In this document: positions 23,977 to 64,000 of the stretch, piece by piece
How the letters are laid out: the number at the start of each line of letters is the position of its first letter
Numbering within the stretch: the first letter of the stretch is position 1
Assembly (NCBI GenBank): GCA_025917655.1
Contig: CP084613.1
Coordinates: 868,001-932,000, forward strand
Direction of reading: 5' to 3'
Source of the DNA: Chlorella sorokiniana
Lineage: Eukaryota; Chlorophyta; Trebouxiophyceae; Chlorellales; Chlorellaceae
DNA: 64,000 nt
Notes under the pieces: generated by a model
Databases searched by the model: none
Told to the model about the DNA's origin: nothing
Seen by the model: the letters and a program-made list of their open reading frames with translations, nothing else
Made by a program: the position numbers and the translations under genes

Positions 23977-26900
23977 TCAGGTCTTGCGTGACGGAGTGTG
24001 CGCCAGCGGCGCACCCGCGCGCCCAGAGGAGATTTTCCGGGGCTGCTGCGGGCGCGGCGGCGGGCTGGCTCGTTCCGTGCCTGCTGCTGCTGCTGCTGCT
24101 GCTGCTGCTTGGGTGCTGGCTTGGCGTGCTTCGACCGCACCTTGTGCTGCCAGCTGGGCTTGCCGCCCTGCTGGCCGCCACCTGGCTCCAGCTCCAGTTC
24201 CAGCTGCAGCCCGTGGTCCGGGCAGCTCCAGGCCTGGAAGGCAGCCGCCAGCCGCGCCCTCTCCACCCGCGACAGGTGGCCCTGGTGGCGGCGCAGGAAG
24301 GCGCAGGCGCCGTCCAGGTCGGCGTCGCCGGGGGGGCAGGCCCACCGCCGCCAGCTGGTGCATGAACGCGGCCAGGCCGCCCAGGCAGGCTGGCCGCAGC
24401 GGCTTCTGCACATAAAAGGGGGGTGCTGAGATCGGGCGAGCGCGGGGGGCTGGGGAAGGGCCGCCCTGCCTGCAGCAGCAGCTTGGAGGCAGAGCCGGCC
24501 CAGTTTGGGGGAGCAGCGCGCCATGCCCGCCTCGCCGCCAGGCTTGCTTTGAGCACGAGCTCCCCGCTCACCCCGAGCAGAGCGGCCTCGCCAGCCTGGC
24601 AGTCCTGGGAGGCGGCGGCCCAGGCCTCATCCAGCAGCAGGAACAGCGCCTCGCGCTCTTCTTGTCCCGCATCGGCGTACCGCCAGCCCTGAGGGTCCGG
24701 AGGGAAGGGCGGGGAGAGGGGCAGGCACGGTCGGCACGGTGCCGGTGGCCGCTTGTGCATAAGGTAGGGGCGCACGAGAACCTTGCCTAACTGCCCAGTG
24801 CAGCCGCCGCTCTGCCACCTTGCGGGCTGCCAACTGCCAGCTGCTCAAGCCCTGCAATCCCATGAAGTTAGGTGTGCGAGTGCCGCTCCCCCACCCGGCC
24901 TGGGCCCTCACCGTGCGGTGCAGCAGGCGCAGCAGCTGGGTGGTGAAGCCGAGCGGCAGCCGCTGCAGCGCGCCGGGCGGCGCCGTGGCCAGCGGCGGCA
25001 GCAGCTGCGCTGCCAGCAGCTGCGACTGCAGGCAGGCCGTCAGCAGGTTGGCGGCGTCGGTGGCGTCCAGGGCGGGCAGGCAGCCGGCCAGGGCGCAGCC
25101 CGCCACCGCCGGCAGCCGCTGGCTGTGGGGCCAGCCGGAGGAGGCCCAGGCATCCACCACCGCCAGCAGGGTGTCGGGCTGCGGCAGGCACAGCGCACGC
25201 AGCGCGCAGCCCTCCGCCGCCGCCGCCAGCGCGGGCGGCGGGGGCAGGCCCCAGCCGCAGAACGCGCGCATCACGCCCAGCGTGCAGTGCAGGGGCGCCG
25301 TCGCCAGCTGGCGCTCCCCGCCCTCCGCCAGCGCCGCCGCCAGCGCGGGCCCCGGGGGCGCCCCCGCGCGCTCCAGCAGCGACGCGAGCGCCGCCAGGCG
25401 CGGGCGTCGGCGGCCGGCAGCGCCTGCAGGGCAACGGCGTGCAGCTGCGACACCTCCCAGGCTGTGAGGGGCAGCGCCGCCGAGGCCGAGCTGTCCAGCA
25501 CGCAGGCCCACAGGCCCACGTCGCTGCGCTGTTCCACGTCGTCGGCGGAGCACAGCGTGGCCACAGCGCCGCCGCACCGCCCCAAACACCTCCGCCGCGC
25601 GGCCGCCGGGCGCAAAGCGCGGGTCGGCGTGGCAGCGGGCCAGGGCGGTGAGGGCGGCAGACAGGTGGATGAGGCTGAGGCAGGCGCTGTGGGAGACGAG
25701 GAGGCGCAGGATGCGCAGCGGCTTGTGCGCCCGGGACAGCTCCCCAGTCAGCACCGCGGGTGCAGCGGGAGAAGCCGCCGCCGCCGCTGCTGCCGCCCTG
25801 CACCGAGTCGGGGCAAGGGGGTGACAGGGCTGCGTCGGTGCCACCCATCAGCGGCAGCCGGCAGGCGGGGAGAGGGGCGGGGGGTGCGGGGTACAGGCAG
25901 CTGCCACTGCATCTGCCATGCCAGTGCACAGTGTTTCATCTGGGTGGCGGGGCAGTAGCGGCGGCGGCAGCGGCGGCGCCGCCTTGCCTGCTGTCGGCCC
26001 TCCTGGCCGCCGGCAAAGCAGATGGAGGGGGCCACGGCGCGCGCCAGCTCTGGGCCGGGGTGCAGGCCCAGCCAGACGTACGCGGACAGCAGGCGCCTGA
26101 GCAGCGCAGACGGCATGGCGGGCACGCGGGGCACATCGCCGCCTCCACCGCCGCCTGCTCCGCCGCCTCCAGCGGCAGGCGCAGCTTCCCGGAAGCTTCC
26201 AGCAGCGTCAGCCAGTTGGAGGCGTCGGCGTCGGCCGGGCGCAGCGGCGCCAGCGCGGCCAGCGCGCGGCGGCGCAGCGCGCGCAGCATGCCGCGCGTCG
26301 CCGGCCGGAACGTCGCCCGCCGCTGGCCCAACGCCGCCGCCAGGCCGTCCAGCAGCGACACCAAGTGGATGTGGTCCATGCGGCCCGCATGCAGCACCGC
26401 CAGCAGCAGCAGGCGCGCCACAGTGGCCGGCCGTGCCGCCAGCTCAGCGGTGAGAGCGCGCGGCGGCAGCGCCGCAAACCTGGGCTCCGCGGGCGTGCCG
26501 CCTCCGCCGCCCTGCAAGCGCGGTGGCGCAGGGACGTGCTTCAGGCGCAGCGCGGCTGTCTGCAACCCCTGCACTGGCACCGGCTGCAGCCCCCTCCCGG
26601 CCAGCGCACACAGCGCACACAGCGCAGCCGCCGTCGCACCTCTGCGGGTTTGAGGCACATGGGCGGCGCCATGGAGGCTGCCAGCTCCCGTCCCGGAGCG
26701 ATTCCCAGCCAGGCGTAAGCGTTGAGCAGGCGCTGCCAGGTGGGCGACGCGGGGCGGGCGGCGGCCGCGCAGGCCGCCGCATCCACCGCCGCCTGCTGCT
26801 GCGGCGCCAGCGGCAGCGCCAGCCAGGCGGAGGCCTCCAGCAGCTGCACGCAGCGCTCCGCGCTGAGGCCGCCCTCAGCGTGCAGAGCGGCGAACGCCAG

Positions 26901-27239: not shown

Positions 27240-28047
27240 GGGAAGGATGGAGGATGGGGATGCTGGTCCAGGCCTTGCCGCCGAGGGGGGGCGGCGGCGG
27301 CCTAGGCGGGGAAGGGGGATAAGGTGAAGAGCGGGCCGTACGGCACTTACGAGATTAAATCTGCATTGTGTCGCTGCTGCTGCTCGTCTTTCCGCAATAC
27401 AGCCCGCCGCTGGATAGGGAGAGGCTGCAAGCAGGGATGGCAGCGAGCTGAGCTACATGTGAAACCAGACAGCAGTTTCAATAGTGAACAAGTTGCGCGC
27501 TAGCCAAAAGCCTACTTCGAAACGGAGCCTCCCATCGCCACACGCCAGCCACCATACCGCCGCTCCAGGGCACTGGCCGCCTTGGAAGAGCGGCAGAATG
27601 GGCGAGGATTCGATGATGATTATGATCACAGTCTGCACCGCACTGGGCACCGACCTTTCACTGTGCTGGCGCCACTGGCGGCAGCGGCTGTCATGCCGCA
27701 TGCGCTCAACATTCCTTGGCTGAATATACGTGGGAAGAAGATACATATTGAATGCTAAAGAGCAAGCGAAGAAGATTCAGCATAACGGCACAAGCAGGGC
27801 AAAGACAGCAGGAGCTGTGGAGCAAGGGATCAAGTATGCGTGCCCGGCGGAGAGCCGTCGAGCTCGGAGTGAGCGGCTCAGTGTCCGCCTGCGTTGCCGC
27901 GTCGGAAGCGCTCACGTGGCGCCAACACGCGGGCATGCCGCCACGCCGCTCCTTCCTTCAGGGCTACAACCGCGGGCGCCGGCCAGCGGCGGGGCTGGGC
28001 GGCGTGGCGACCGCCGCAGCGCCGCCGCTCTTCCCGGCGCGGCTGGC
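27240..28047. other. Intergenic interval between AP-4 mu and the helical-repeat gene
   Basis: About 800 bases, lower in GC around 27450-27800. It should hold the promoter of the helical-repeat gene and the 3' UTR of AP-4 mu. Short open frames on both strands lack recognisable features. Confidence 0.5.
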
Positions 28048-43309: not shown

Positions 43310-46300
43310 TCAGGCATCACAGCCGAAAGCATTCATCAGGATGCAAGGAAAGATATCAGAGGGCAAGGCCACCCTGCGCCGACGCTGGGAGACGTGCAGG
43401 CACTGCAACGTTGTGCGCAGGCGCGCTGCATCGACAGGAGACAGCCGCTGCACAACCTTGCGGGCCTGGTATGCTGACCAGGTGAGAGCGGCTGGCAGGG
43501 CGCGCAGGATGCCTGGGCAGGGGGCTGGGATGTGCCGCCACTCGGCGCTGGAGAGGGGCACCCGAGCAGACACATAATCAGCCAGTAGGTGCAGCCCGTG
43601 GGGACCAGCATCAAGTAAAATGAACAGGTCGTCTTCCCTGGGTGCTGCTGCTGCATGGAGCAGGAGGCTGGCAGCCGCAGAATGCGGAACGCCATGGCCA
43701 TGGTGGAGAGCCAGCTGGAGCGGCGGGTAGCCTGCCCGTGTTGCCCGCGTTGCAGCTTCCGGGGCAGCATCCAGCAGCTGCTGCACCACTAATGTGTGGC
43801 CATGCACAGCCGCCAGATGCAGCGGCAGGCAACCATCAGGCGTGGGCTTCAGCGCCACGTGCAGAGCAGCATCAAGCAGGTGCTGCACCACTGCCGTGTG
43901 GCCATCCTGTGCCGCATAATGCAGCGGCAGCCAGCCTTGCTGAGTTGCCTGCCTCGCGGCCTCAGGAGCTGCCTCCAGGAGATGCTGCACCACTGCCGTG
44001 CGGCCATTCTGCGCCGCCACGTGCAGCGGCAGCCAGCCTCGCTCGTTCGGCTGCATCGCGGCCTCAGCAGCTGCCTCCAGGAGATGCTGCACCACTGCTG
44101 TGTGGCCATTCTGCGCTGCAAGGTGCAGCGATAGCCAGCCATTCTCGTTCGGTTTTGTTGCAGCCTCAGCGGCTGGCCCCAGCAGCTGCTGCACAACTGC
44201 CGTGTGGCCTGTCGCCGCCGCCACATGCAACGGCAGCCAGCCAGCCTTTGTTGCCTGCATCGCGGCCTCGACAGCTGCCACCAGCAGCTGCTGCACCACT
44301 GCCGTGTGGCCATTCTGCGCTGCCGAATGCAGCGGCAGCCAACCTTCCAAAGTTGCCTGCATTGCGGCCTCAGCAGCTGTCGCCAGCAGCTGCTGCACTA
44401 CCGCCGTGTGGCCATTCTGCGCTGCCAAATGCAGCGGCAGCCCGCCCTCTTCTGTTGCCTGCATCGCGGCCTCGCCAGCTGTTGCCAGCAGTTGCTGCAC
44501 CACTGCCGCGTGGCCTATCTCCGCTGCCCCATGCAGCGGCAGAAAACCGCCAGGCGTTGGCACCAACGCCGCCTGCGGGCAACATCAAGTAGCTGCTGCA
44601 CCACTGCCGAGTGGCCTGTCGCCCCCACTGCCGCAAGATGCAGCGGCAGCAAACCTTCCTCAGTTGCTTGCATTGTGGCCTCGGCGGCTGCAGCCAGCAG
44701 CTGCTGCACCACTGCCGTGTGGCCTTTCTGTGCCGCATAATGCAGAGGCAGCCAGCCTGTCTCATCCGGTTTTATGGCAGCCTCAGCAGCTGCCACCAGC
44801 AGCTGCTGCACCACTGCCGTGTGGCCTTTTGCCGCCGCAAAATGCAGCGGCAGCCAGCCTTCCTCAGTTGCTTGCATTGTGGCATCAGCGGCTGCCGCCA
44901 GCAGCTGCTGCACCACTGCCGTGTGGCCATTCCATGCCGCATAATGCAGCGGCAGCCGGCCTGTCTCATCTCGTTTTGCTGCAGCCTCAGCAGCTGCCCC
45001 CAGCAGCTGCTGCACCACTGCTGCGTGGTCATTCCGCGCCGCAAAATGCAGCGGCAGCCAGCCTTTCTCGTTTGCCTGCATCGCGGCCGCAGCAGCTGCC
45101 GCCAGCAGCTGTTGCACTACTGCCGTGTGGCCATCCTCCGCCGCTAGATGCAGCAGCAGACATCCATCATTCGTAGCTTGCATCGCGGCTCCCGCAGGTG
45201 CCCCCAGCAGATGCTGCACCACTGCCGCGTGGCCATTCTGTGCCGCAAAATGCAGTGGCAGCCAGCCATCCTCGTCCCGCTGTGTCCCAGACTCAGCAGC
45301 TGCCGCCAGCAACTGCTGCACCACTGCCGTGTGGCCATTCCATGCCGCCACATGCAGCGGCAGCCAGCCGTCCTCGTCCGGTCTTGTCGCAGCCTCAGCA
45401 GCTGCCGCCAGAAGCTGCTGCACCACTGCCGTGTGGCCATTCTGTGCTGCTACATGCAGCGGCAGCAAGCCTTTCTCGTTTGCCTGCATCGTGGCCGCAG
45501 CAGTTGCCGCCAGCAGCTGCTGCACCACTGCCGTGTGACCTTTCGCCGCCGCCACATGCAACGGCAGGCAGCCTTTCTCGGTTGCCTGCATCGCAGCCTC
45601 AGAGGCTGCCGCCAGCAGCTGCTGCACCACTGCTGCGTGGCCATTTTGTGCAGCATAATGCAGCGGCAGCCAGCCTTCCTCGGTTGCCTGCATCGCTGCC
45701 TCAGAGGCTATCGCCAGCAGCTGCTCCACCACTGCCGTGTAGCCATCTTGTGCTGCCACAAGCAGCGGCAGCCAGCCTTCCTCGGTTACCTGCATCGCGG
45801 CCTCAGAGGCTATCGCCAGCAGCTGCTGCACCACTGCCGTGTGGCCGCGCACCGTTGCCACATGCAGCGGCAGCAAACCGCCAGGAATTGGCACCAACGC
45901 CGTCTGCGGGACAGCATCTAGTAGCTCTTGCACCACTGCCGTGTGGCCATGCCATGCCGCAAAATGCAGCGGCAGCCAGCCTTCCTCGTTTTCCTGCATC
46001 GCGGCCTCAGCAGCTGCCGCCAGCAGCTGCTGCACCACTGCTGTATGGCCATACTGCGCTGCCACATGCAGCGGCAGCCAGCCTTCGTCAGTTGCTTGCA
46101 TCGCGGCCTCAGCAGCTGCCGCCACCAGCTGCTGCACCACTGCTGTGTGGCCGTTCACAGCCGCTAGATGCAACGGCAGCAAGCCTTCCTCGTCCGGTCT
46201 TGTCGCAGTCTCAGCAGCTGCCGCCAGCAGCTGCTGCACCACTGCTGCGTGGCCATTCTGGGCTGCCTTATGCAGCGGCAGCCAGCCTTCCTCAGTTGCC

Positions 46301-47739
46301 TGCATCGCGGCCCCAGCAGCTGCCGCCAGCAGCTGCTGCACCACTGCTGCGTGGCCTTCCTTTGCTGCCACATGCAGCGGCAGCCAGCCTTCCTCAGTTG
46401 CCTGCATCGCGGCCTCCGCAGATGCCGCCACCAGCTGCTGCACCACTGCCGTGTGGCCGTTCACAGCCGCAAAATGCAGCGGCAGCCAGCCGTCCTCGTC
46501 CGGTCTTGTCGCAGCCTCAGCAGCTGCCGTCAGCAGCTGCTGCACCACTGCTGTATGGCCTTTCATCGCCGCCACATGCAGCGACAGCCGACCGTGCTCG
46601 TTTGCCTGCATCGCACCCTCAGCACCTGCGGAAAGTAGCTGCTGCACCACTGCCGTGTGGCCATTTCTCGCCGCTAGATGCAGCGCCAGCCAGCCGGCCT
46701 CATCTGGCTGCATCCCAACTTTGGGGGCTGCAGCCAACAGCGTCCTCACGGCTCTGCTGCTGCCACACTTGGCTGCCAGATGAAGGAGAGATGCCGCAGT
46801 TTTTGGCTCCTCTGCCCCACTTGACAGGCATACTTTCGCCAACGCTGCCGACGGGTTGACCAAGAGCAACAGCTGCAGCGCAGCGTCATGCCCCCGCATC
46901 ACTGCTGCACCCAGCAGGCCCACCGCAGCCACACGAGCAGGGGGCCCTGCAAGGGAGGCATGAAAAGAAGCAGTGAGCCTTATGGCAGTGGCCCTATTTC
47001 ATTGCACAACCAAGCATAACAACATCACTCTACCTAACCTCACCTTCGGAAGTGGCCCGAGCGTTAGCAGCGCAGTCGGCAAGCTGCTGCAGCACAGCCA
47101 GCAGCTCCTGCAGGGGGCCGCCGCCAGCAAGCACCTCCAAGCGATGCCTGCAGGAACGCTTGCCCATGGTGAGCCCAATGTGCAGTACGCACTGATCTTC
47201 ATGCAAACCCTGCCAACAGGCAGCAAAACGCAACACACTCTCACCTTTGCAGGCGCGCACTCTGCAGCTCAGGCGTATCATCCTGGAAGCGAAGCTCTGC
47301 TGCCGTAACAGACCGCCCCGCATCCAGAGCCCACTTCACTGCAATCATCGGCCACAGAAGGTATGGGTGCTGTCAGAAGGGCCAGCGCGGAGGTATGCTG
47401 CTGACAGAACTCACGCGTGACGGCGTCGCACACCACCGCCGCCTCCTCCTCAGTGCGCAGCGGAGAAACCTCGTGCACCTCCCCGTTGAGAGTTACCGCA
47501 ACCTAGCAAGCACGGGCGACAGTATCAGGAGTCAGGGGGCGTTGAGGTTGCAGGCGCGCGTGAGGGCAGCCCGCACCGGCGTGCAATTGTGGTGAAACAG
47601 AGAGTGCAGGGTTTCCGGCTACCTTGAAGCGGTCGCCGACAGCTTCAACTCTGCAGATCAGTGTGGCGCCGCCCATGCTGTAGCGAGAAGCAACGGCATG
47701 CAGCAGCGTGCCCAGCCGTCCAAAAAGGCGCGGATGCAT
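43310..47739 (-). CDS. Ankyrin-repeat protein with about 30 near-identical repeats (copy 1)
   Basis: Exons 47623-47739 (MHPRLFGRLGTLLHAVASRY), 47415-47502, a third from about 47335 (ending LQSARLQ), a fourth (HRLEVLAGGGPLQELLAVLQ) and one giant exon to 43310 all join with GT-AG borders. The short N-terminal domain (about 140 residues) has VTLNGEVHEVSPLRTEEEAA and ELRFQDDTPELQSARL. About 30 ankyrin repeats follow with consensus GWLPLHVAAQNGHTAVVQQL-L, coded by 99-base DNA repeats. The C-terminal domain (about 120 residues; LLADYVSARVPLSSAEWRHI, PCPGILRALPAALTW, RLRTTLQCLHVSQRRRR, FGCDA) is conserved in copy 2. One slip in the run 44577-44579 splits the giant exon. The binding partner is unknown; no membrane span was seen. 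Confidence 0.82.
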
Positions 47740-52480: not shown

Positions 52481-55466
52481 TCAGGCATCACAGTCGAAAG
52501 CACTGATCAGGATGCAAGGAATGATATCAGAGGGCAAAATCACCCTGCGCCGACGCTGGGAGACGTGCAGGCACTGCAACGTCATGCGCAGCCACGCTGC
52601 ATCGACAGAGGACAGCCGCTGCACAATCTCACGGGCCTGGTCTGCTGACCGGGTGAGAGCGGCTGGCAGGGCGCGCAGGATGCCTGGGCAGGGGGCTGGG
52701 ATGCGCCGCCACTCAAAGGGGAATAGAGGAACTCGAGCAATCACGAAATCGGCCAGCAGATGCAGCCCGCGAGGACCAGCCGCAAGTAGAGTGGATAGGT
52801 CAAGCTGCCTGGGTGCTGCTGCTGCACGGAGAAGGAGGCTGGCAGCTGCAGAATGCGGAACGCCATGGCCTTGAGGCAGCGCCAGTTGAAGCGGAAGCTG
52901 GCCTGCCACTGTCGCCTGCATAGCAGCTTCAGGGGCAGCATCCAGCAGGTGCTGCAGCACTGATGTGTGACCATTCTTTGCCGCCAGATGTAGTGGCAAC
53001 AAACCATCCTCAGTTGCCTGCATAGCGGCCTCAGCAGCTGTCACCAGCAGCTGCTGCACAACTGCCGTGTGGCCATACTGCACTGCCACATGCAGCGGCA
53101 GCCAGCCTTCCTCGTCCGGTCTTGTCGCAGCCTCAGCAGCTACAACAAGCAGCTGCTGCACCACTGCCGTGTGGCCTATCTCCGCCGCCTCATGCAGCGG
53201 CAGCAAACCGTCAGGTGCTGGCACCAAGGCCGCCTGCGGGGCAGCATCAAGTAGCTGCTGCACCACCGCCGTGTGGCCAAACTGCACTGCCACAAGCAGC
53301 GGCAGCCTGCCATCATTTGTAGCTTGCATCAGGGCCTCAGCGGCTGACACCAGCAGCTGCTGCACCACTGCTGTGTGGCCATTCTGCGCCGCAAAATGCA
53401 GCGGCAGCCAGCCTTCCTCGGTTGCCTGCATCGTGGCCTCAGCAGCGGCCACCAGCAGCTGCTGCACCACTGCCGTGTGGCCGTTCTGCGCCGCAAAATG
53501 CAGCGGCAGCCAGCCTTCCTCAGTTGCATGCATCGAGGCCTCAGCAGCTGCCGCCAGCAGCTGCTGCACCGCTGCCGCGTGGCCATCCTGTGCCGCAAAA
53601 TGCATCGGCAGACAACCGTCAGGCTCTGGCACCAGCGCCGCCTGCGGGGCAGTATCAAGTAGCTGCTGCACCACTGCCGAGTGGCCTTTTGCCGCCGCAA
53701 GATGCAGCGGCAGCCAGCCTTCCTCAGTTGCTTGCATAGCGGCCTCAGCAGCTGCCGCCAGCAGCTGCTGCACCACTGTCGTGTGGCCATCCTGCGCGGC
53801 AAAATGCAGGGGCAGCCAGCCTGTCTCATCCGGCCGTGTCGCGGCCTCAGCAGCTGCCACTAGCAGCTGTGTCACCACAGCCGTGTGGCCATCCTGCGCA
53901 GCAAAATGCAGGGGCAGCCAGCCTGTCTCATCCGGCCGTGTCGCGGCCTCAGCAGCTGCATCAAGCAGCTGCTGCACCACCGTCGTGTGGCCATTTTTCG
54001 CAGCTAGATGCAGCGGCAGCCAGCCTTCATTATTAGCTTGCATAGCGGCCTCAGCAGCTGCCTGCAGCAGTTGCTGCACCACTGCTGTATGGCCTATCGC
54101 TGCCGCCACATGCAGCGGCAGCCAGCCTCTCAGTTGCCTGCATCGCAGCCTCAGCAGCTGCCGCCAGCAGCTGCTGCACCACTGCCGTGTGGCCAATCGC
54201 CGCCGCAAGATGCAGCGGCAGCCAGCCTTTCTCGTCCGGTCTTGTCGCAGCCTCAGCAGCTACCGAAAGCAGCTGCTGCACCACTGCCGTGTGGCCATTC
54301 TGCGCCGCAAAATGCAGCGGCAGCCAGCCTTCGTCGCCCGGTCTTGTAGCAGCCTCAGCAGCTACCGAAAGCAGCTGCTGCGCCACTGCCGTGTGGCCAT
54401 TTTCCGCAGCAAAATGCAGCGGCAGCCAGCCGGCCTCATCTGGCTGCATCACAGCTTTGGGGGCTGCAGCCAACAGTGTCCTCACGCCCGTGCTGCTGCC
54501 ACGCTCTGCTGCCAGGTGCAGGAGATATCCCGCAGTTTGTGGCTCCTCTGCCCCCTTGATAGGCATACTTTCGCCAACGCTGCCGACGGGATGACCAAGA
54601 GCAACAGCTGCAGCGCAGCGTCATGCCCCAGCGTCACTGCTGCACCCAGCAGGCCCACCGCCGCCACATGAGGAGGGGCCACTGCAAGAAAGGCATAAAA
54701 CCATGCAGTGAGGGTTGCACTGGCCCTATGTCAGCACAACCAAGCGTAACAACACCTAGCCTCACCTTCGGAAATGGAATGACTGTTAGCAGCGCAGTCG
54801 GCAAGCTGCTGCAGCAAAGCCAGCAGGGGCTCTTGCAGGCTGCCGCCACCAGCAAGCGCCTCCAAGCGAAGCCTGCAGGAACGCTTGCGCATGGTGAGCC
54901 CAGTGTGCAGTCCGCACTGATCATCATGCAAACCCTGCCGACAGGCAGCAAATTGCAACGCACGCTCACCTTTGCAGTTGCGCACTCTGCAGCTCAGGCG
55001 TATCATCCTGGAAGCGGAGATCTGCTGCCGTAACAGACCGCCCCGCATCCAGAGCCCACTTCACTGCATTCAACGGCCACAGAAGGTATGGGTGCTGTCT
55101 TAGAACGGCCAGCGCGGAGCGATTGCCGACGGAACTCACGCGTGACGGCGTCGCACACCACCGCCGCCTCCTCCTCAGTACGCAGCGGATAAACCTCGTG
55201 CACCTCCCCGTTGAGAGTTACCGCAACCTAGCAAGCACGGGCGACAGTCTCAGGAGTCGGGGGCGTAGAGGTTGCAGGCGCGCGTGAGGGCAGCCCGCAC
55301 CGGATGGCAAATGTGGTGGTGCAGAGAATACAGGGATTCAAGCTACCTTGAAGCGGTCGCCGACAGCATCAACTCTGCAGATCAGTGTGGCGCCGCCCAT
55401 GGCTGTAGCAAGAGGCTACGGCATGCAGCAACGTGCCCAGCCGTCCAAACAGGCGCGAAATTGCAT
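52481..55466 (-). CDS. Ankyrin-repeat protein with about 15 repeats (copy 2)
   Basis: The C-terminal domain (LLADFVIARVPLFPFEWRRI, RLRMTLQCLHVSQRRRRVIL, FDCDA), the array of about 15 repeats and the N-terminal exons (LNGEVHEVYPLRTEEEAAVV, RLEALAGGGSLQEPLLALLQ) all match copy 1. The probable first ATG is 55464-55466. Exon 1 is shifted by one base relative to copy 1 after MQ, and again before GGAT, and the array loses two bases near 54135, where ATERLAAA stands for ATEEGWLPL. Copy 2 may therefore be decaying, or may suffer the same read errors as elsewhere. Strongly diverged repeats flank near-identical ones. Confidence 0.72.
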
Positions 55467-55649: not shown

Positions 55650-56426
55650 TGGACCTGTGCTGGTGCTGGAAGAAGCAGGCGGTCCCCGGACAGCCCAGCT
55701 CCAGGGAGCGCTCCAGGCAGGCGGGGCGGCCCCTGACCCGCAAGAAGTCAGGCGCGCCACTCGTGAGCATTCCTATGGGCGCTTGGCGGAGGCGCCTTCA
55801 GAGCCGTGTGCTGGCCGCCTGCAACGCTACTTCGCGGTCGTGAGGCCCGAGCGCATCGGGTCAGCCGACAGCTATGGCCAGCCAGCTCACATCAAAGAGG
55901 TGGGAACAGCGCCGTTGCCCGACGAAGCGGTGAGGCCATGGGGCTGCTGTCGTGCCTGGTTTCCTGGCTGTTGCCGATTACACTTGCAGTGCAGGCCCCG
56001 CTTGTTTCCAACACCCCACCACCAGATGAGCGCGATGGGGGCGCGGCTGATGGGCGTGTATGAGGCCAGGGCGGCACAAAGCTGCCCTCCCTAAAGCAGT
56101 TGCTGAGACGTCCTATGGGGGTTCTTCGGCGACAAGTGCACCCGCCTGGAGGGGCACGAGTGGGATGGCCAGCGTGAATATGGCCTGTCGTGGCCAAAAC
56201 CTGCCTGAGAGTGAGCGGCGGCCCGAGTGTGTGTGTGGTGGGGGGTGGGTGGAGGGGGAGGAGGCGGGGGAGGGCGCGTCTGGGGCGCTCAGTGTCAGCA
56301 ACCGCCTTTCGGCTCCCGCCCTTTACCCTGCTCCCCGCCCCCCCCACCGCCTGTGTTGCAGCGCTGGCCACGCGTGCCCCGCAGGGCGAGACCAGCAAGA
56401 AGCAGGCCAAGGAGAAGACAAAGTAG
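55650..56426 (+). CDS. Gene X, copy 2 (unrecognised)
   Basis: Blocks AQLQGALQAGGAAPDPQEVR, RLQRYFAVVRPERIGSADSY, QPAHIKEVGTAPLPDEA and MGARLMGVYEARAAQS match copy 1. A last exon starts after TGTTGCAG near 56361 and ends LATRAPQGETSKKQAKEKTK at the TAG 56424-56426, a Lys-rich tail absent from copy 1. The small head and basic end suggest a soluble basic protein. The family is not recognised, and the 5' part is not established. Confidence 0.4.
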
Positions 56427-57157
56427 CGGGGCCGCTGAGGAAGTGAACAGCATCATGAGTGGCCAGCGTTAGCCTAGAGGTAGCAGAGCAACAAGTGCTG
56501 ACTGTGTGCATGAACCGGGCGTCGCCTGCGAGCCCCAGTGTCTCGTTAATGCCCGCGCCTCGCGCCTTAGCCCTCGTGCAACACGCACCCGCATGATGGA
56601 AAGGGCGAGGGCTGGACCGAGGCAGGGCATGGCAGTGCGGTGTGCCTCCTGTGCCGCAAGAGGCCCAATCACTCGCCAGCCGTTGAAGGGCAGCCGCTGC
56701 AGCGCAGTGGTTCACGTGGTGTGCTCGCCAGGCTATGCCATCGATGCTGCGCTGGCCTCGCTGGCGGTGCCTGCTGGGGAGGCAGCCCCAGCGTCGGAGG
56801 CCCGGCGCATGGCGTCAAAACGCTTCGATCAGTTTTGACGATCGCATCCCATGCGTTGAGACCCACCAAAGCTCGCTGTTGCTCGACAGCGCTTTCGCCC
56901 AGGAGCGGGTGGCCTCCTTGGGAGGGCTTGCCGGTCGTGTCACATCATCATGGCGTTGCTATCAATAAATCAGGACGTCAGGGCCGCCCGCGGCCGCTGC
57001 CGTCGCGGTCCCGCCGGCGCCGCCGCCGCCATGTGTCGCTGGGGCAGCCACCAGGGTTGTCTCAGGTCAGCAAACTTCAGAGGCATCTGGACATTGCCAG
57101 GAGGAGAGGCGTTGGGTGTCTCTCGTCGTTGAGGACACCCTGAACCAGATGCTGAGT
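56427..57157. other. Spacer after gene X copy 2
   Basis: About 730 bases. Contains the 3' UTR of gene X copy 2. No further gene, repeat or RNA was recognised. Confidence 0.4.
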
Positions 57158-57232
57158 GGGCGAGGCCAGGCCCGGGAACGGGCCTGAGGTGCCAGGGGTG
57201 CCCCAGGCCCGTTCCCTGGGGGCCCTGGCCGT
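57158..57232. repeat. GC-rich hairpin next to the tRNA gene
   Basis: GGCCAGGCCCGGGAACGGGC and CTG, then a 15-20 base loop, then CAGGCCCGTTCCCTGG and GGGCCCTGGCC. The arms pair over about 23 bases with a small gap. It lies about 30 bases beyond the Pol III terminator of the permuted tRNA gene. Confidence 0.7.
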
Positions 57233-57260
57233 GGCTACTACTGTTCCATCTGCAATAAAC

Positions 57261-57264
57261 AAAA
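57261..57264 (-). terminator. Pol III terminator (TTTT) of the permuted tRNA gene
   Basis: TTTT on the minus strand begins six bases after the last base of the tRNA 5' half, in the context CTTTCTTTTG. It ends a transcript that would contain 3' half, spacer and 5' half. Confidence 0.75.
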
Positions 57265-57269
57265 GAAAG

Positions 57270-57386
57270 TTCTAGTCCACCTCCTTAACCGCTCGGACAC
57301 AGTGTCGTTGGGTTTATCCACTCAAAGGAACACATAATCGGTCGACACCGACAGGACTCGAACCTGCGCGGGTTTCCCCAGTGGAT
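57270..57386 (-). tRNA. Circularly permuted tRNA-Ser(AGA) gene
   Basis: Reading the minus strand, the 3' half comes first (57386-57343): A38, anticodon stem TCCAC, variable arm TGGGGAAACCCGC (stem GGG/CCC), T arm GCAGG-TTCGAGT-CCTGT with the B box GGTTCGAGTCC, acceptor CGGTGTC and discriminator G, typical for serine. A 36-base spacer follows (57342-57307). Then comes the 5' half (57306-57270, exactly positions 1-37): acceptor GACACTG, D arm TCCGAGCGGTTAAGGA, G26, anticodon stem GTGGA and CTAGAA with anticodon AGA. All stems match: GACACTG/CGGTGTC (one G-T), TCC/GGA, GTGGA/TCCAC. The joined tRNA is 81 bases. Leader element GTTCTA (57414-57409) is complementary to TAGAAC at the anticodon/trailer border, and a perfect hairpin CCCTGC-GCA-GCAGGG (57408-57394) lies between it and the splice point, restoring tRNA-intron geometry. 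CCA is not encoded. Confidence 0.92.
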
Positions 57387-57454
57387 GGCAAGTCCCTGCT
57401 GCGCAGGGTAGAACATGTGTTTAATGCAGCCTGCGTCGTGCCATCCCGCAGTGC

Positions 57455-60299: not shown

Positions 60300-63200
60300 C
60301 GCGCTGGGGACACACAGCAGTGCAACCCACTAGCTCCGGTACAACATCTAAGCATCGCAGGCGGGCGGGCGGGCGGGGTGTAATCACCGGCCAAGCCGGG
60401 GATCGGGCGCAGGGGGCAGCAGGGGAGTGGAGGGCGCCTGGGAGCACACCCAAAGCGCCGCCAGCGAAGCAAATGACACAGGAAGGCGGGGAGGCAGGGC
60501 GCCGGTTACGCATGTGGGCACCATCGCACGCCACCGCAGGGCCGCCAGCACGGGTCAGGATGGGGATGGAAAGGGGAAGGTGGGGCCCCGCAGCAAGGCA
60601 GCAGCAGGCCGCTGACAGCCACGCGCCGCGGCCCGCCCGGCACAGTAGCCGAGAGGCGGCCAGACGGGCGGGCGGAAACGACACAGGGCAGGCAGGGGAC
60701 ACTGAAGCCACACGGAGCGGGTCAGACAGGAGAGGGGCACAGGGGGCCAACTGGGAAGGAACGAGATGGAGACGAGGGGCGGGGCCGCCCCGCAGGCCCG
60801 GCAGGGCGGGCGGGGCAGACAGCGCCGGGGTCATGCGCTAGGCATCAGGGCGTGGGGAGGCCGCAACTGCAGACGGCCAGAATCTGTGAAAAAGAAGGGG
60901 TGCGTGGTGGGGATGCGGGCAAGCCAAGCGGCAGGCGCCAGGTCCAGGGCATGGAAATCAGCAAGCAGGGACCAAAATGCACCGACCCCGAGCGGCAGGC
61001 GGCGGGGGGGGGCCGGTGGGGGCGGAGGCTGCGGCGCCGGGGGCGCCACCGGCTCTCGCGGGGGGCGGGGGCTCCGGGCCGGCGGCGGCCGCCGCCGCGC
61101 CAGGGGGCTCAGGAGGCTGGGGCTGCCGCAGGGAGCCGTCAAGCGAGCGTTGGACGAGGCGGGGCTGCTGCTGCGGCGGCTGCTGCTGCTCGCGCCGGCG
61201 CCGCAGCGCCGCTGCCGCCAGAGAACGCCGGCCACGGTCCATGGCCTCGACAGCCGCCAGACAGACCACCCCCACACCCCGGCGTCAAGGTTGGGCGGGG
61301 TGCGGGCCAGCCAGATGTCGGCGGGCAAGAGGGGGCAGGCTGCTCTGCAGGGGGCGCCGCGGCCGCCAGCGCCGCCTGGACAGCGGCAACAACGGCCTGC
61401 GCCACCGGGCATGCCCAGAAGTGGTGGTGGCGGTCAGGGCGGGGGCCCGCGCCGCACTCGCATGGCTGGTCGCGGTGCATGCGGGCTGCGGTGGGGAGGG
61501 CATCGTAGGCCAGCCGCCAGAACACCTCCTTCCGCCCATTCTCCCAGGGCAGACGCCACAGCCGGCGCATGGCAGCCTGGAGCTCGGGGAGGTGGGAAGG
61601 GGAAGGGGGCTGCCGGCGGTGGCGAGCGCCGCACAGGGGGCAAGGTGGAGGCTGGCACGCTGTTGGGCAGCTGGCGCCGCCAGCAGCGCGGTGGCTGAGC
61701 GCACGGTGAGCCGCGCGAAGCTGACGGGCCGGCCAGCGGGCAGCCGCCAGGCCAGGCGAGGGAGGAGGAGGGTGTGGAGGACGTGGGCGGGGGAGGGCGG
61801 CTGCGGTGGGGCCGCGGCAGCAACGGCGGCGCGCGCTGCCGCTACCCAAGCAGCGGGGACCGCCGCCAGCAGGGCTGCGAGGCGCTCCGCCGCCACGTGG
61901 CGCTGTGCAAACGCCGGGAGGAGGCCAAGAGCGGGTGGCGCACCAGGCTGACGTAAGCCGCCTGCGTGGGCGCTGCCGCCACAGCCCGCCCAACAGCGAG
62001 CGCGCGCCCGAGGGTGCCCACCCCTGCTGCCAGGAAGTCGGTGAAGGCGTGGTCCAGGCCGGCGGGGTGGGCTGCTGAGACCAGGAAGGGGTTGCCCCAC
62101 AGGGGCAGGGAGAGGCACCAGGGGCCGGGCCGGAGCTGCTGGGGCGCCAGGTCGGCTGGGGGTGGCAAGGAGGCGAGGGGCTGCCCGCAGGCGGAGGAGG
62201 GGCGGCGGCAGGTGGGCGAGCGACGCCAGCAGGGGCTGCTGGATGGGCCAGAACAGCAGGCCTGCTGGCGGCAGGCCGTCAAGCAGCTCGTACGCCAGCG
62301 CCACCCAGGGCGGGAGCCGCTCCTCCGGAGGGGCCGGTGCGTCGGGAGGCGGGGCGGGGCGGCGGCCGGGAGCGGCGGAAGGGGAGGCAAGGGAGGTGGC
62401 GGGTCGGGGGAGGGGCCGCCGCCCCTGCGAGGTGTGTGAGGGGAGGCGGAGGGGAGGTGAGGAGGCGGGCCGCCCAGCTGGCATGGCGGGCCGAGATATG
62501 GAGGAGCCAGGGCAGCGCCCCAAAGCCGCCGTCAGCAGGCCGCCCAGGCAGGACGTCGCGGTGCAGGCCGGCAAAGCGCCGCTGCGTGGCGGAGGGGCCC
62601 TGGCTGCGATCCACAAGGCGCGCCGTGATGCGTGCAAGGCGGTCAGCGATGGCGGCGGGGGTGGCCCAGGAACTCGGAGTGGTAGAGCAGCTTCGGCACG
62701 CCATAGCCGGCGCTGGCAAAGGCCCGCCCGAAGACGGAGAGGCCAAGGCGGGCGATGCGGGCGTACACGGTCTCCACCCGGGCCAGCAGGGAGGCCCAGG
62801 TGGCGGCGGTGGCGGCTGCGGGCGGTTCGCCGTTGGCAAAGGGGATGCCGAGGGCGGTGACGGAGGAGACGACGCGCAGGCCGCGGCGCGCCGCGGGAGG
62901 TGGCAGCGCCGCTTCCACATCGGCGGGCACGGCGCCGAGGGGGAGCAGCTGCGTTTTGGAGGGTTGAGGCGCTGCCCGGTGGCGCCGCCAAAGGTGTCCA
63001 TGGCGCCCAGGAAGGCGGGCAGCTGGGCTGGAGAGTCCAGCAGGATGTGCGCGTCGTCAGCATAGCAGCCGGTGGTGGTGGTGAGGGGGAGCCGGGCAGG
63101 AGGTCGCGCAGGCCAACGCCACGCTGGCGCAGGAAGGCAAGCAGGGCCTGGGCGACAAACAGGTAGAGCAGCGGGGCTACCGGGCAGCCCTGGCGCACGC

Positions 63201-64000
63201 CTGCCAGGAAGTCGGCGGGGGAGGAGATGAAGCCGCTGACCAGGGCACGGGCGCGGGTGCCGTGGAGGAGGGGGCGGACCAGGGAGAGGAAGCCCTCGCC
63301 GACGCCCAGGTCCGCCATGATGCGGAAGAGGAAGGAGCGGTCGATGGTGTCGTAGGCCTTGCGGAAGTCGCAGAAGGCCGCCAGCGCCCAGCGGCCCGCA
63401 CGGCGGAGGAGGTGGGGGAGGAGCTGCAGGGCCATGATGCTGTCGCCGATGCGGCGGCCAGGCACAAAGGCAACCTGCTCTGGGTCGATGACGGAGGAGA
63501 GGCAGGGCCCAAGGCGGCGGGCCAGCACAAGCGCATAGAGGCGATAGTCGGCGCCGAGCAGGGTGATGGGGCGGTAGCAGGCGGGGTCAGCGCGGTCGCC
63601 AGCCTTGAAGAGGAAGGTGATGAGCCCCTCATGGAATGAGCGCGGCAGCTGGCCGGTGGAGGCAATGGCGGTGAAGAGGCGGGAGAAGAGGGGGCAAAGG
63701 CGGTGCGGAAGTGGCGGTACAGGTCGGGGGACGCCGTCCAGGCCAGGCGACTTGCCCGGCTTGACGCGCCGCATGGCGCGCAGCACCTCCTCGGCAGAGA
63801 AGGCAGCCTCGCCCAGGAAGCTGCCTGCAGCTCGGTGAGGCGGCGGCCACTGCGCACCGCTGCGCTGACCTCATCCTGGGCGGCGGCAGAGGTGGTGGGC
63901 GCTGCAGAAATGGCCGCGGCTGCCTGCACCGCCACCGCTGCGGCTGAGGGGCCGGAGTGCAAGGCGCCGCCGGAACCTCGCAGCGCAGGGATGGTGGTAA
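60300..64000 (-). mobile_element. LINE with reverse transcriptase (Zepp-like), continuing beyond the window
   Basis: Minus strand, 3' end near 60300-60340, coding from about 60840 to beyond the right edge. The reverse transcriptase shows KPGKSPGLDGVP, GLITFLFKAGDRADPACYRP then ITLLGADYR (finger and palm), FVPGRRIGDSIM, DFRKAYDTIDR, GFISSPADFLAGVRQGCPVA and the catalytic YADD in GCYADDAHILLDSPAQ near 63060. The thumb region has LNPPKTQLLPLG, then the zf-RVT block GAGPRPDRHHHFWACPVAQA and the HPFFFTDSGRLQLRPP ending. Several one-base slips at C or G runs interrupt the frame, so coding capacity cannot be judged. The endonuclease and 5' end are outside. Zepp-type assignment is inference from host type and nesting. 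Confidence 0.85.

Follow-up and report, generated by a model that had tools for sequence, protein, structure and literature searches.

A two-copy circularly permuted tRNA-Ser(AGA) gene in the nuclear genome of Chlorella sorokiniana, with a probable loss of the upstream promoter in one copy

Results

The DNA studied here is a 64,000-nt window of the Chlorella sorokiniana genome (C3:868001-932000; the genome measures 38.8 Mb in 15 contigs, 13 nuclear and two organellar). It contains a type II (37/38) circularly permuted tRNA-Ser(AGA) gene, which runs on the minus strand between window positions 57386 and 57270. The 3' half of the tRNA (positions 38-73; 44 nt, 57343..57386) comes first, followed by a 36-nt spacer between the tRNA 3' and 5' ends (57307..57342) and by the 5' half (positions 1-37; 37 nt, 57270..57306), with the anticodon AGA at 57273..57271. 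A preliminary description of this DNA had proposed this swapped order and a cut exactly between 37 and 38. The sequence confirms both, A37 being the last base of the 5' half and A38 the first base of the 3' half. Rejoined as 5' plus 3', the resulting 81 nt are called tRNA-Ser(aga) by ARAGORN with a score of 116.9 and fold into a complete cloverleaf, in which the acceptor stem pairs at 7/7 positions (one G-U), the T stem at 5/5 (one G-U) and the anticodon stem at 5/5, in line with the pairing first claimed. U8, G18G19, U33, U54U55C56 and R15:Y48 are present in the sequence, as are the discriminator G, the D loop GGTTAAG and the long variable arm (hairpin GGG-GAAA-CCC) pointed out earlier. No CCA is encoded, as in eukaryotic permuted cases; ACC follows G73.

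The sequences on either side of the halves also agree with what had been described. In a constrained fold, GUUCUA at the start of the leader (leader 57387..57414, GUUCUA 57414..57409, minus strand) forms a helix with UAGAAC, which spans position 33 to the first base of the trailer (+1), and the hairpin CCCTGC/GCAGGG (57408..57394) forms alongside it. A G at -3 of the leader (57389), three bases before A38, can face C32 of the 5' half (57275). The leader helix is broken by the hairpin, unlike a textbook bulge-helix-bulge, and the free fold is more stable. Directly 3' of position 37, the trailer CTTTCTTTT (57261..57269) is a T-run terminator of the Pol III type, and TTTT (57264..57261) closes the unit, as announced. 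No T run in the spacer exceeds 3, and the terminator comes only after position 37. The spacer length falls within the 1-74 bp range of a 2014 table of permuted genes, and the spacer would be expected to be excised from a circular intermediate under the model given there (PMC3978253). Other features near the gene, all on the minus strand, are a reverse-transcriptase ORF (RVT_1, 8.6e-15; window 61285-63786) and two long ankyrin-repeat ORFs (44515-46932 and 52481-54208).

The pairing at this site is not due to chance. Scanning the 44-36-37 geometry along both strands of the window gave 127,766 placements, and all 17/17 acceptor, T and anticodon pairs (G-U allowed), with TTC at 54-56 and T33, occurred at one placement, 57386 on the minus strand; nine runners-up had 15 pairs and none had 16. 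Over these placements ARAGORN in linear mode made 11 calls, all at the Ser site, six at 57384-57389 minus (neighbouring registers) and five representing its mirror image at 57262-57266. Circular mode, in which other joins are allowed, also gave calls near 25352, 27896-28030, 31148, 37536, 44468 and 61785-61904. The unrearranged window yielded no tRNA with ARAGORN (bacterial code, no introns) or with Rfam (gathering thresholds), which is expected because the gene is permuted. The preliminary description had called for a permutation-aware tRNA search. A covariance search was done with a model, R1, made from 14 nuclear class I tRNAs of the same genome (without Ser and Leu) that were cut at 37/38, swapped and joined by random spacers, and that represents the 37/38 junction type only. 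The Ser site scored 30.8 bits with R1 (E = 5e-07 for a search of the window), and a single further match up to E 10 reached 8.3 bits (E 2.9). Because single halves of normal tRNA genes, training members included, score up to 32.1 bits with R1, this result excludes random DNA but not tRNA halves, and the order of the Ser halves rests on the sequence itself.

The genome holds at least two further permuted tRNA genes, both on minus strands and both of type II. Short genome-wide B-box patterns followed by R1 on 31 + 20 loci revealed a permuted Arg(TCT) gene (C4:985653-985737, spacer 12, 72.9 bits) and a permuted Ile(TAT) gene (C10:1771200-1771284, spacer 10, 61.5 bits), with scores far above those of single tRNA halves. 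Their rejoined sequences match the genome as separate halves only. All three families (3/3) have a leader G at -3 and a C at 32, a leader paired with the anticodon loop or trailer in constrained folds, and, shortly 3' of position 37, a run of T (CTTTCTTTT, TGTAGATCTTTTT and AATTTTTTT). The constrained fold of Arg pairs G-3 with C35, not C32, and lifting the tRNA constraint stabilises the predicted folds by 1.5 kcal/mol for Arg, 6.0 for Ile and 1.2 for Ser. The free fold of rejoined Ile is not a cloverleaf, though ARAGORN calls it Ile(tat). Of a further 12 loci, none yielded a permuted gene and one had a normal tRNA, Pro(AGG).

Several candidates were set aside during this search. Locus L103 (C5:1703206; positions 125-235 of C5:1703057-1703367) combines a T arm and a T8 run with an acceptor that, in permuted order, pairs perfectly over 7 bp, and it scores 25.7 bits, but its anticodon stem was not recognised and R1 gives such scores at normal tRNA halves, so it was not counted; it may be a decayed or differently cut permuted tRNA. 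In the leader of Ile(TAT) (L109), TCTTATG repeats the end of the gene's own 5' half and is followed by nine bases, which raised the idea of a relic of a tandem intron-bearing gene whose outer halves had been lost. This was dropped, as the match of leader to 5' half was not significant (146/1000 shuffles did equally well) and five other comparisons were worse. Rfam searches of seven loci returned 11 matches, all to microRNA families and under their cut-offs, and these were discarded as well.

The permuted Ser(AGA) gene is present twice in the genome, at C3:925270-925386 on the minus strand (the window copy) and at C3:933122-933238 on the plus strand, 7.7 kb away. The two copies are 100% identical across the 218 nt compared. 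Both belong to an inverted duplication measuring 1.7 kb or more, which covers 55713..57417 of the window and has its 99.5% identical partner at C3:933091-934800, outside the window. The alignment comprises 1,710 columns with 3 mismatches and 4 gap openings, and its length is a lower bound, since the aligned stretch ends at 55713, before the far end of the repeat. On the gene side the breakpoint is at 57417, 31 nt upstream of A38; the leader hairpin and the T-run survive in the window copy, whose upstream flank is cut off. The swapped order or the second copy might be blamed on misjoined reads, an inverted repeat being a structure prone to misassembly, but the upstream flanks of the copies differ and the same 37/38 permutation is found in three unrelated tRNAs with different spacers, and we consider an assembly artefact highly improbable.

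We then compared the AT content of the DNA upstream of the permuted genes with that of normal nuclear tRNA genes. At -110..-32 relative to A38, the AT fraction is 0.32 for the window copy and 0.57 for the second Ser copy, 0.56 for permuted Arg and 0.53 for permuted Ile, and 22 normal nuclear genes range from 0.44 to 0.65 (before position 1), which makes the window copy the lowest of 26 genes (next 0.44). At -90..-1 it is again the lowest, with 0.38 among 27 genes (next 0.47), the 23 normal genes having 0.47-0.61 and the other three permuted genes 0.51-0.58, and so it is for the best 60-nt stretch (0.45; next 0.50). Six normal genes with less than 90 nt of upstream sequence do not enter these ranges; over the 46-55 nt closest to them the fraction is 0.39-0.62, with the minimum at Pro(AGG). 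The window-wide mean is 0.33 in 89-nt stretches. The window copy therefore sits in ordinary GC-rich DNA and lacks, over the stretches compared, the TATA-like or AT-rich flank that frequently accompanies permuted genes without strictly defining them. The flank of the second copy is tRNA-gene-like, AT-rich and TATA-like, with TATAATAAA at -66. No 7-mer was enriched in the 22 normal upstream regions (best count 5, shuffle maxima 3-7), and a specific upstream motif was abandoned in favour of a claim restricted to AT-richness.

From this flank difference, the second copy is probably the working gene and the window copy a promoterless, derived and recent inverted duplicate; the direction of the duplication, from outside into the window, is likewise deduced from the flank difference alone. 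With its breakpoint between promoter and gene, the window copy would probably be silent or weak. Both copies might instead be active if the swapped B and A boxes, or cryptic upstream elements, suffice for Pol III. Identity across the whole gene, retention of the T-run and leader hairpin, and the want of a specific upstream motif whose loss could be scored all speak for this. But a duplication this recent would leave identical copies whether used or not, and the AT content of the window copy's flank is the lowest in the three rankings above, so that activity of both copies appears unlikely.

A repeat starting with TGT, read over 224 nt, lies near several tRNA genes (L096 88-311, L045 257-34, L013 1401-1179 and L005 715-561). 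One full copy starts 80 nt ahead of Arg(CCG) and another about 100 nt ahead of one of the Lys(CTT) genes, both pointing away from the gene. A third, oriented likewise, starts on the upstream side of the permuted Ile(TAT), 124 nt from A38. Another copy, 73 nt upstream of Val(CAC), lacks the initial 69 nt and is unusable for spacing. The three full copies carry GGTTCGAATCC, through which a genome-wide pattern found them, and 3/3 stand beside tRNA genes, few as these copies are. Among 121 loci and the window, a sample biased because most loci were chosen for tRNA-like sequence, the sole further match is 33 nt in L067. Judged by this placement, the repeat resembles a mobile element that targets Pol III genes. 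If the Pol III machinery guides its insertion, transcription of the permuted Ile would start roughly 24-44 nt before A38, and an AT-rich block at -76 of this gene is in line with such a start.

The preliminary description had asked whether a normal tRNA-Ser(AGA) exists elsewhere. None was found at the sensitivity of our BLAST and pattern searches, which could miss a diverged or intron-bearing gene. Rejoined Ser matched the two permuted copies only in BLAST, a search of short reach because Ser(CGA) was missed too. The D arm CGAGYGGTTAAGG has three sites in the genome, namely the two permuted copies and a normal Ser(CGA); Ser(GCT) is a normal gene with a D arm of a different type. The contiguous sequence GACTAGAAATC, expected of an unpermuted Ser(AGA) with the same stem, has 0 sites in the genome. 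On the strength of this limited search, the permuted gene may be the cell's sole source of tRNA-Ser(AGA).

The wider tRNA census covered 29/32 nuclear sites of GGTTCGAVTCC, 13/19 of GGTTCGAWCCC, 12/12 of GGTTCGAGCCC, at least 2/76 of GGTTCAADYCC and part of the GGTTCGATTCC sites, which number at least 83 and in many cases form arrays; 63/450 candidates were scored with RF00005, organelles included. We take C15 (117,793 bp) to be the plastid contig and C14 (77,013 bp), with for example cox1 and cob, to be the mitochondrial one, judging by their translations. Many GGTTCGATTCC sites occur at a spacing of about 271 bp, within a stem resembling a T arm (CGTGGGTTCGATTCCCATCACG in those copies that were read), in arrays at C4:2292679-2363644 and C5:1443082-1456995 (G000) and also on C6, C9, C10 and C11; they are perhaps a tRNA-derived satellite or centromeric repeat.

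Anticodon-loop introns were found by ARAGORN in normal genes for His, Gly(CCC), Thr(AGT), Met and Leu(CAA). By reading of the sequence they are also present in Arg(TCG), which ARAGORN calls SeC, and in Leu(TAA) (L091), which it calls an intron-bearing Ile(tat) and which we read as class II Leu from its long variable arm; were ARAGORN right here, Ile(TAT) would have another gene besides the permuted one. The intron-bearing tRNA-Gly(CCC) belongs to a pair of loci in inverted orientation 3.8 kb apart (L075 and L076; C3:1031139 minus and C3:1034912 plus), the other member of which seems to be an incomplete and diverged copy of the intron and 3' half of this gene. Two loci score above the cut-off for PF01974, the tRNA-intron (splicing) endonuclease family, and with the intron-bearing tRNAs they suggest that the cutting machinery is probably present.

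These results also bear on whether the permuted Ser family could be a non-functional relic, a normal or intron-bearing Ser(AGA) having been missed. The census was mainly limited to GGTTCGANYCC B-box sites and BLAST with rejoined Ser is insensitive, which leaves some room for this reading. It is set against an intact cloverleaf, a terminator, the tRNA-gene-like flank of the second copy and two sibling permuted genes, as well as against the absence of contiguous GACTAGAAATC and of any additional Ser D arm of the CGAGYGGTTAAGG type. We judge it very unlikely.

Discussion

Taken together, the data are best explained by a two-copy nuclear family of type II permuted tRNA-Ser(AGA) genes, with an intact copy outside the window and a probably silent or weak copy inside it, a reading in which we place high confidence and which bears out the permuted gene first proposed. 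Pol III would start on the intact copy (C3:933122-933238) from the AT-rich, TATA-like upstream promoter and stop at the T-run after position 37. The structure made by leader, anticodon loop and trailer would be cut by the tRNA-splicing endonuclease, and ligation of 37 to 38 would yield a circular pre-tRNA, from which RNase P and tRNase Z would remove the 36-nt spacer before CCA is added. The product would probably be the only tRNA-Ser(AGA) source in the cell. The window copy would have been born by a recent inverted duplication whose breakpoint fell between promoter and gene.

The precedents named in the preliminary description, a red alga, prasinophytes and nucleomorphs, hold, and since 2025 they include Auxenochlorella. 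According to the 2014 compilation, 34 permuted tRNA genes were known by then, among them Ser(AGA) cut at 37/38 in the Bigelowiella natans nucleomorph and, with a 64 bp spacer, in Micromonas pusilla, and Arg(TCT) cut at 37/38 in Ostreococcus tauri (11 bp spacer) (PMC3978253); permuted Ser(AGA) is also reported from the Amorphochlora amoebiformis nucleomorph (PMC4494063). The prasinophyte and nucleomorph genes (Maruyama et al. 2010, via PMC3978253 and PMC4494063) share the type II 37/38 junction with those described here, and some resemble them in an AT-rich upstream region. They come from other organisms, the spacers here being 36, 12 and 10, and permuted Ile(TAT), present here, is missing from the 2014 table (PMC3978253). 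The permuted tRNA genes described in 2007, as summarised in PMC3978253, likewise have swapped halves, a T-stretch after the 5' half and a circular intermediate, with a TATA-like sequence no more than 50 bp ahead of the 3' half; their junctions lie at several places of the cloverleaf. The model used here covers 37/38 only.

A close comparison is Auxenochlorella UTEX 250-A, likewise a Chlorella-like trebouxiophyte with permuted tRNA genes (PMC12636532), whose tRNAscan-SE set was incomplete until these genes were detected (PMC12636532, PMC12633428). Its organelle genomes differ in size, with a plastome of 84.6 kb and a mitogenome of 54.0 kb (PMC12636532) against 117.8 and 77.0 kb here. The case in a Chlorella-type alga is thus less singular than the preliminary description held, since Auxenochlorella is reported to have such genes too. 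Our literature search, judged by titles and abstract openings, gave no other report of permuted tRNAs in a Chlorella-type alga. In the portions of the prasinophyte and nucleomorph literature available to us, no description of a duplicate permuted copy without its upstream flank was found. What appears to be new here is a pair of copies differing in the promoter flank, a putative natural promoter-loss pair.

How permuted genes are transcribed is an open question because their internal Pol III boxes stand in the wrong order. As the Ser copies have an identical gene and are told apart by the flank, RNA could show directly whether an upstream promoter is needed. The genome offers three permuted families at one junction type, and it is one more organism from which the age of permuted Ser(AGA) can be traced, this gene being found again in a prasinophyte and in nucleomorphs that descend from green algae. 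The fullest reading, which we put forward tentatively and at somewhat under an even chance, is that the Ser pair is a natural promoter-removal experiment in an alga relying for an essential tRNA on its permuted gene, and that a mobile element recognises permuted genes here. If true, this element would recognise permuted genes as working Pol III genes.
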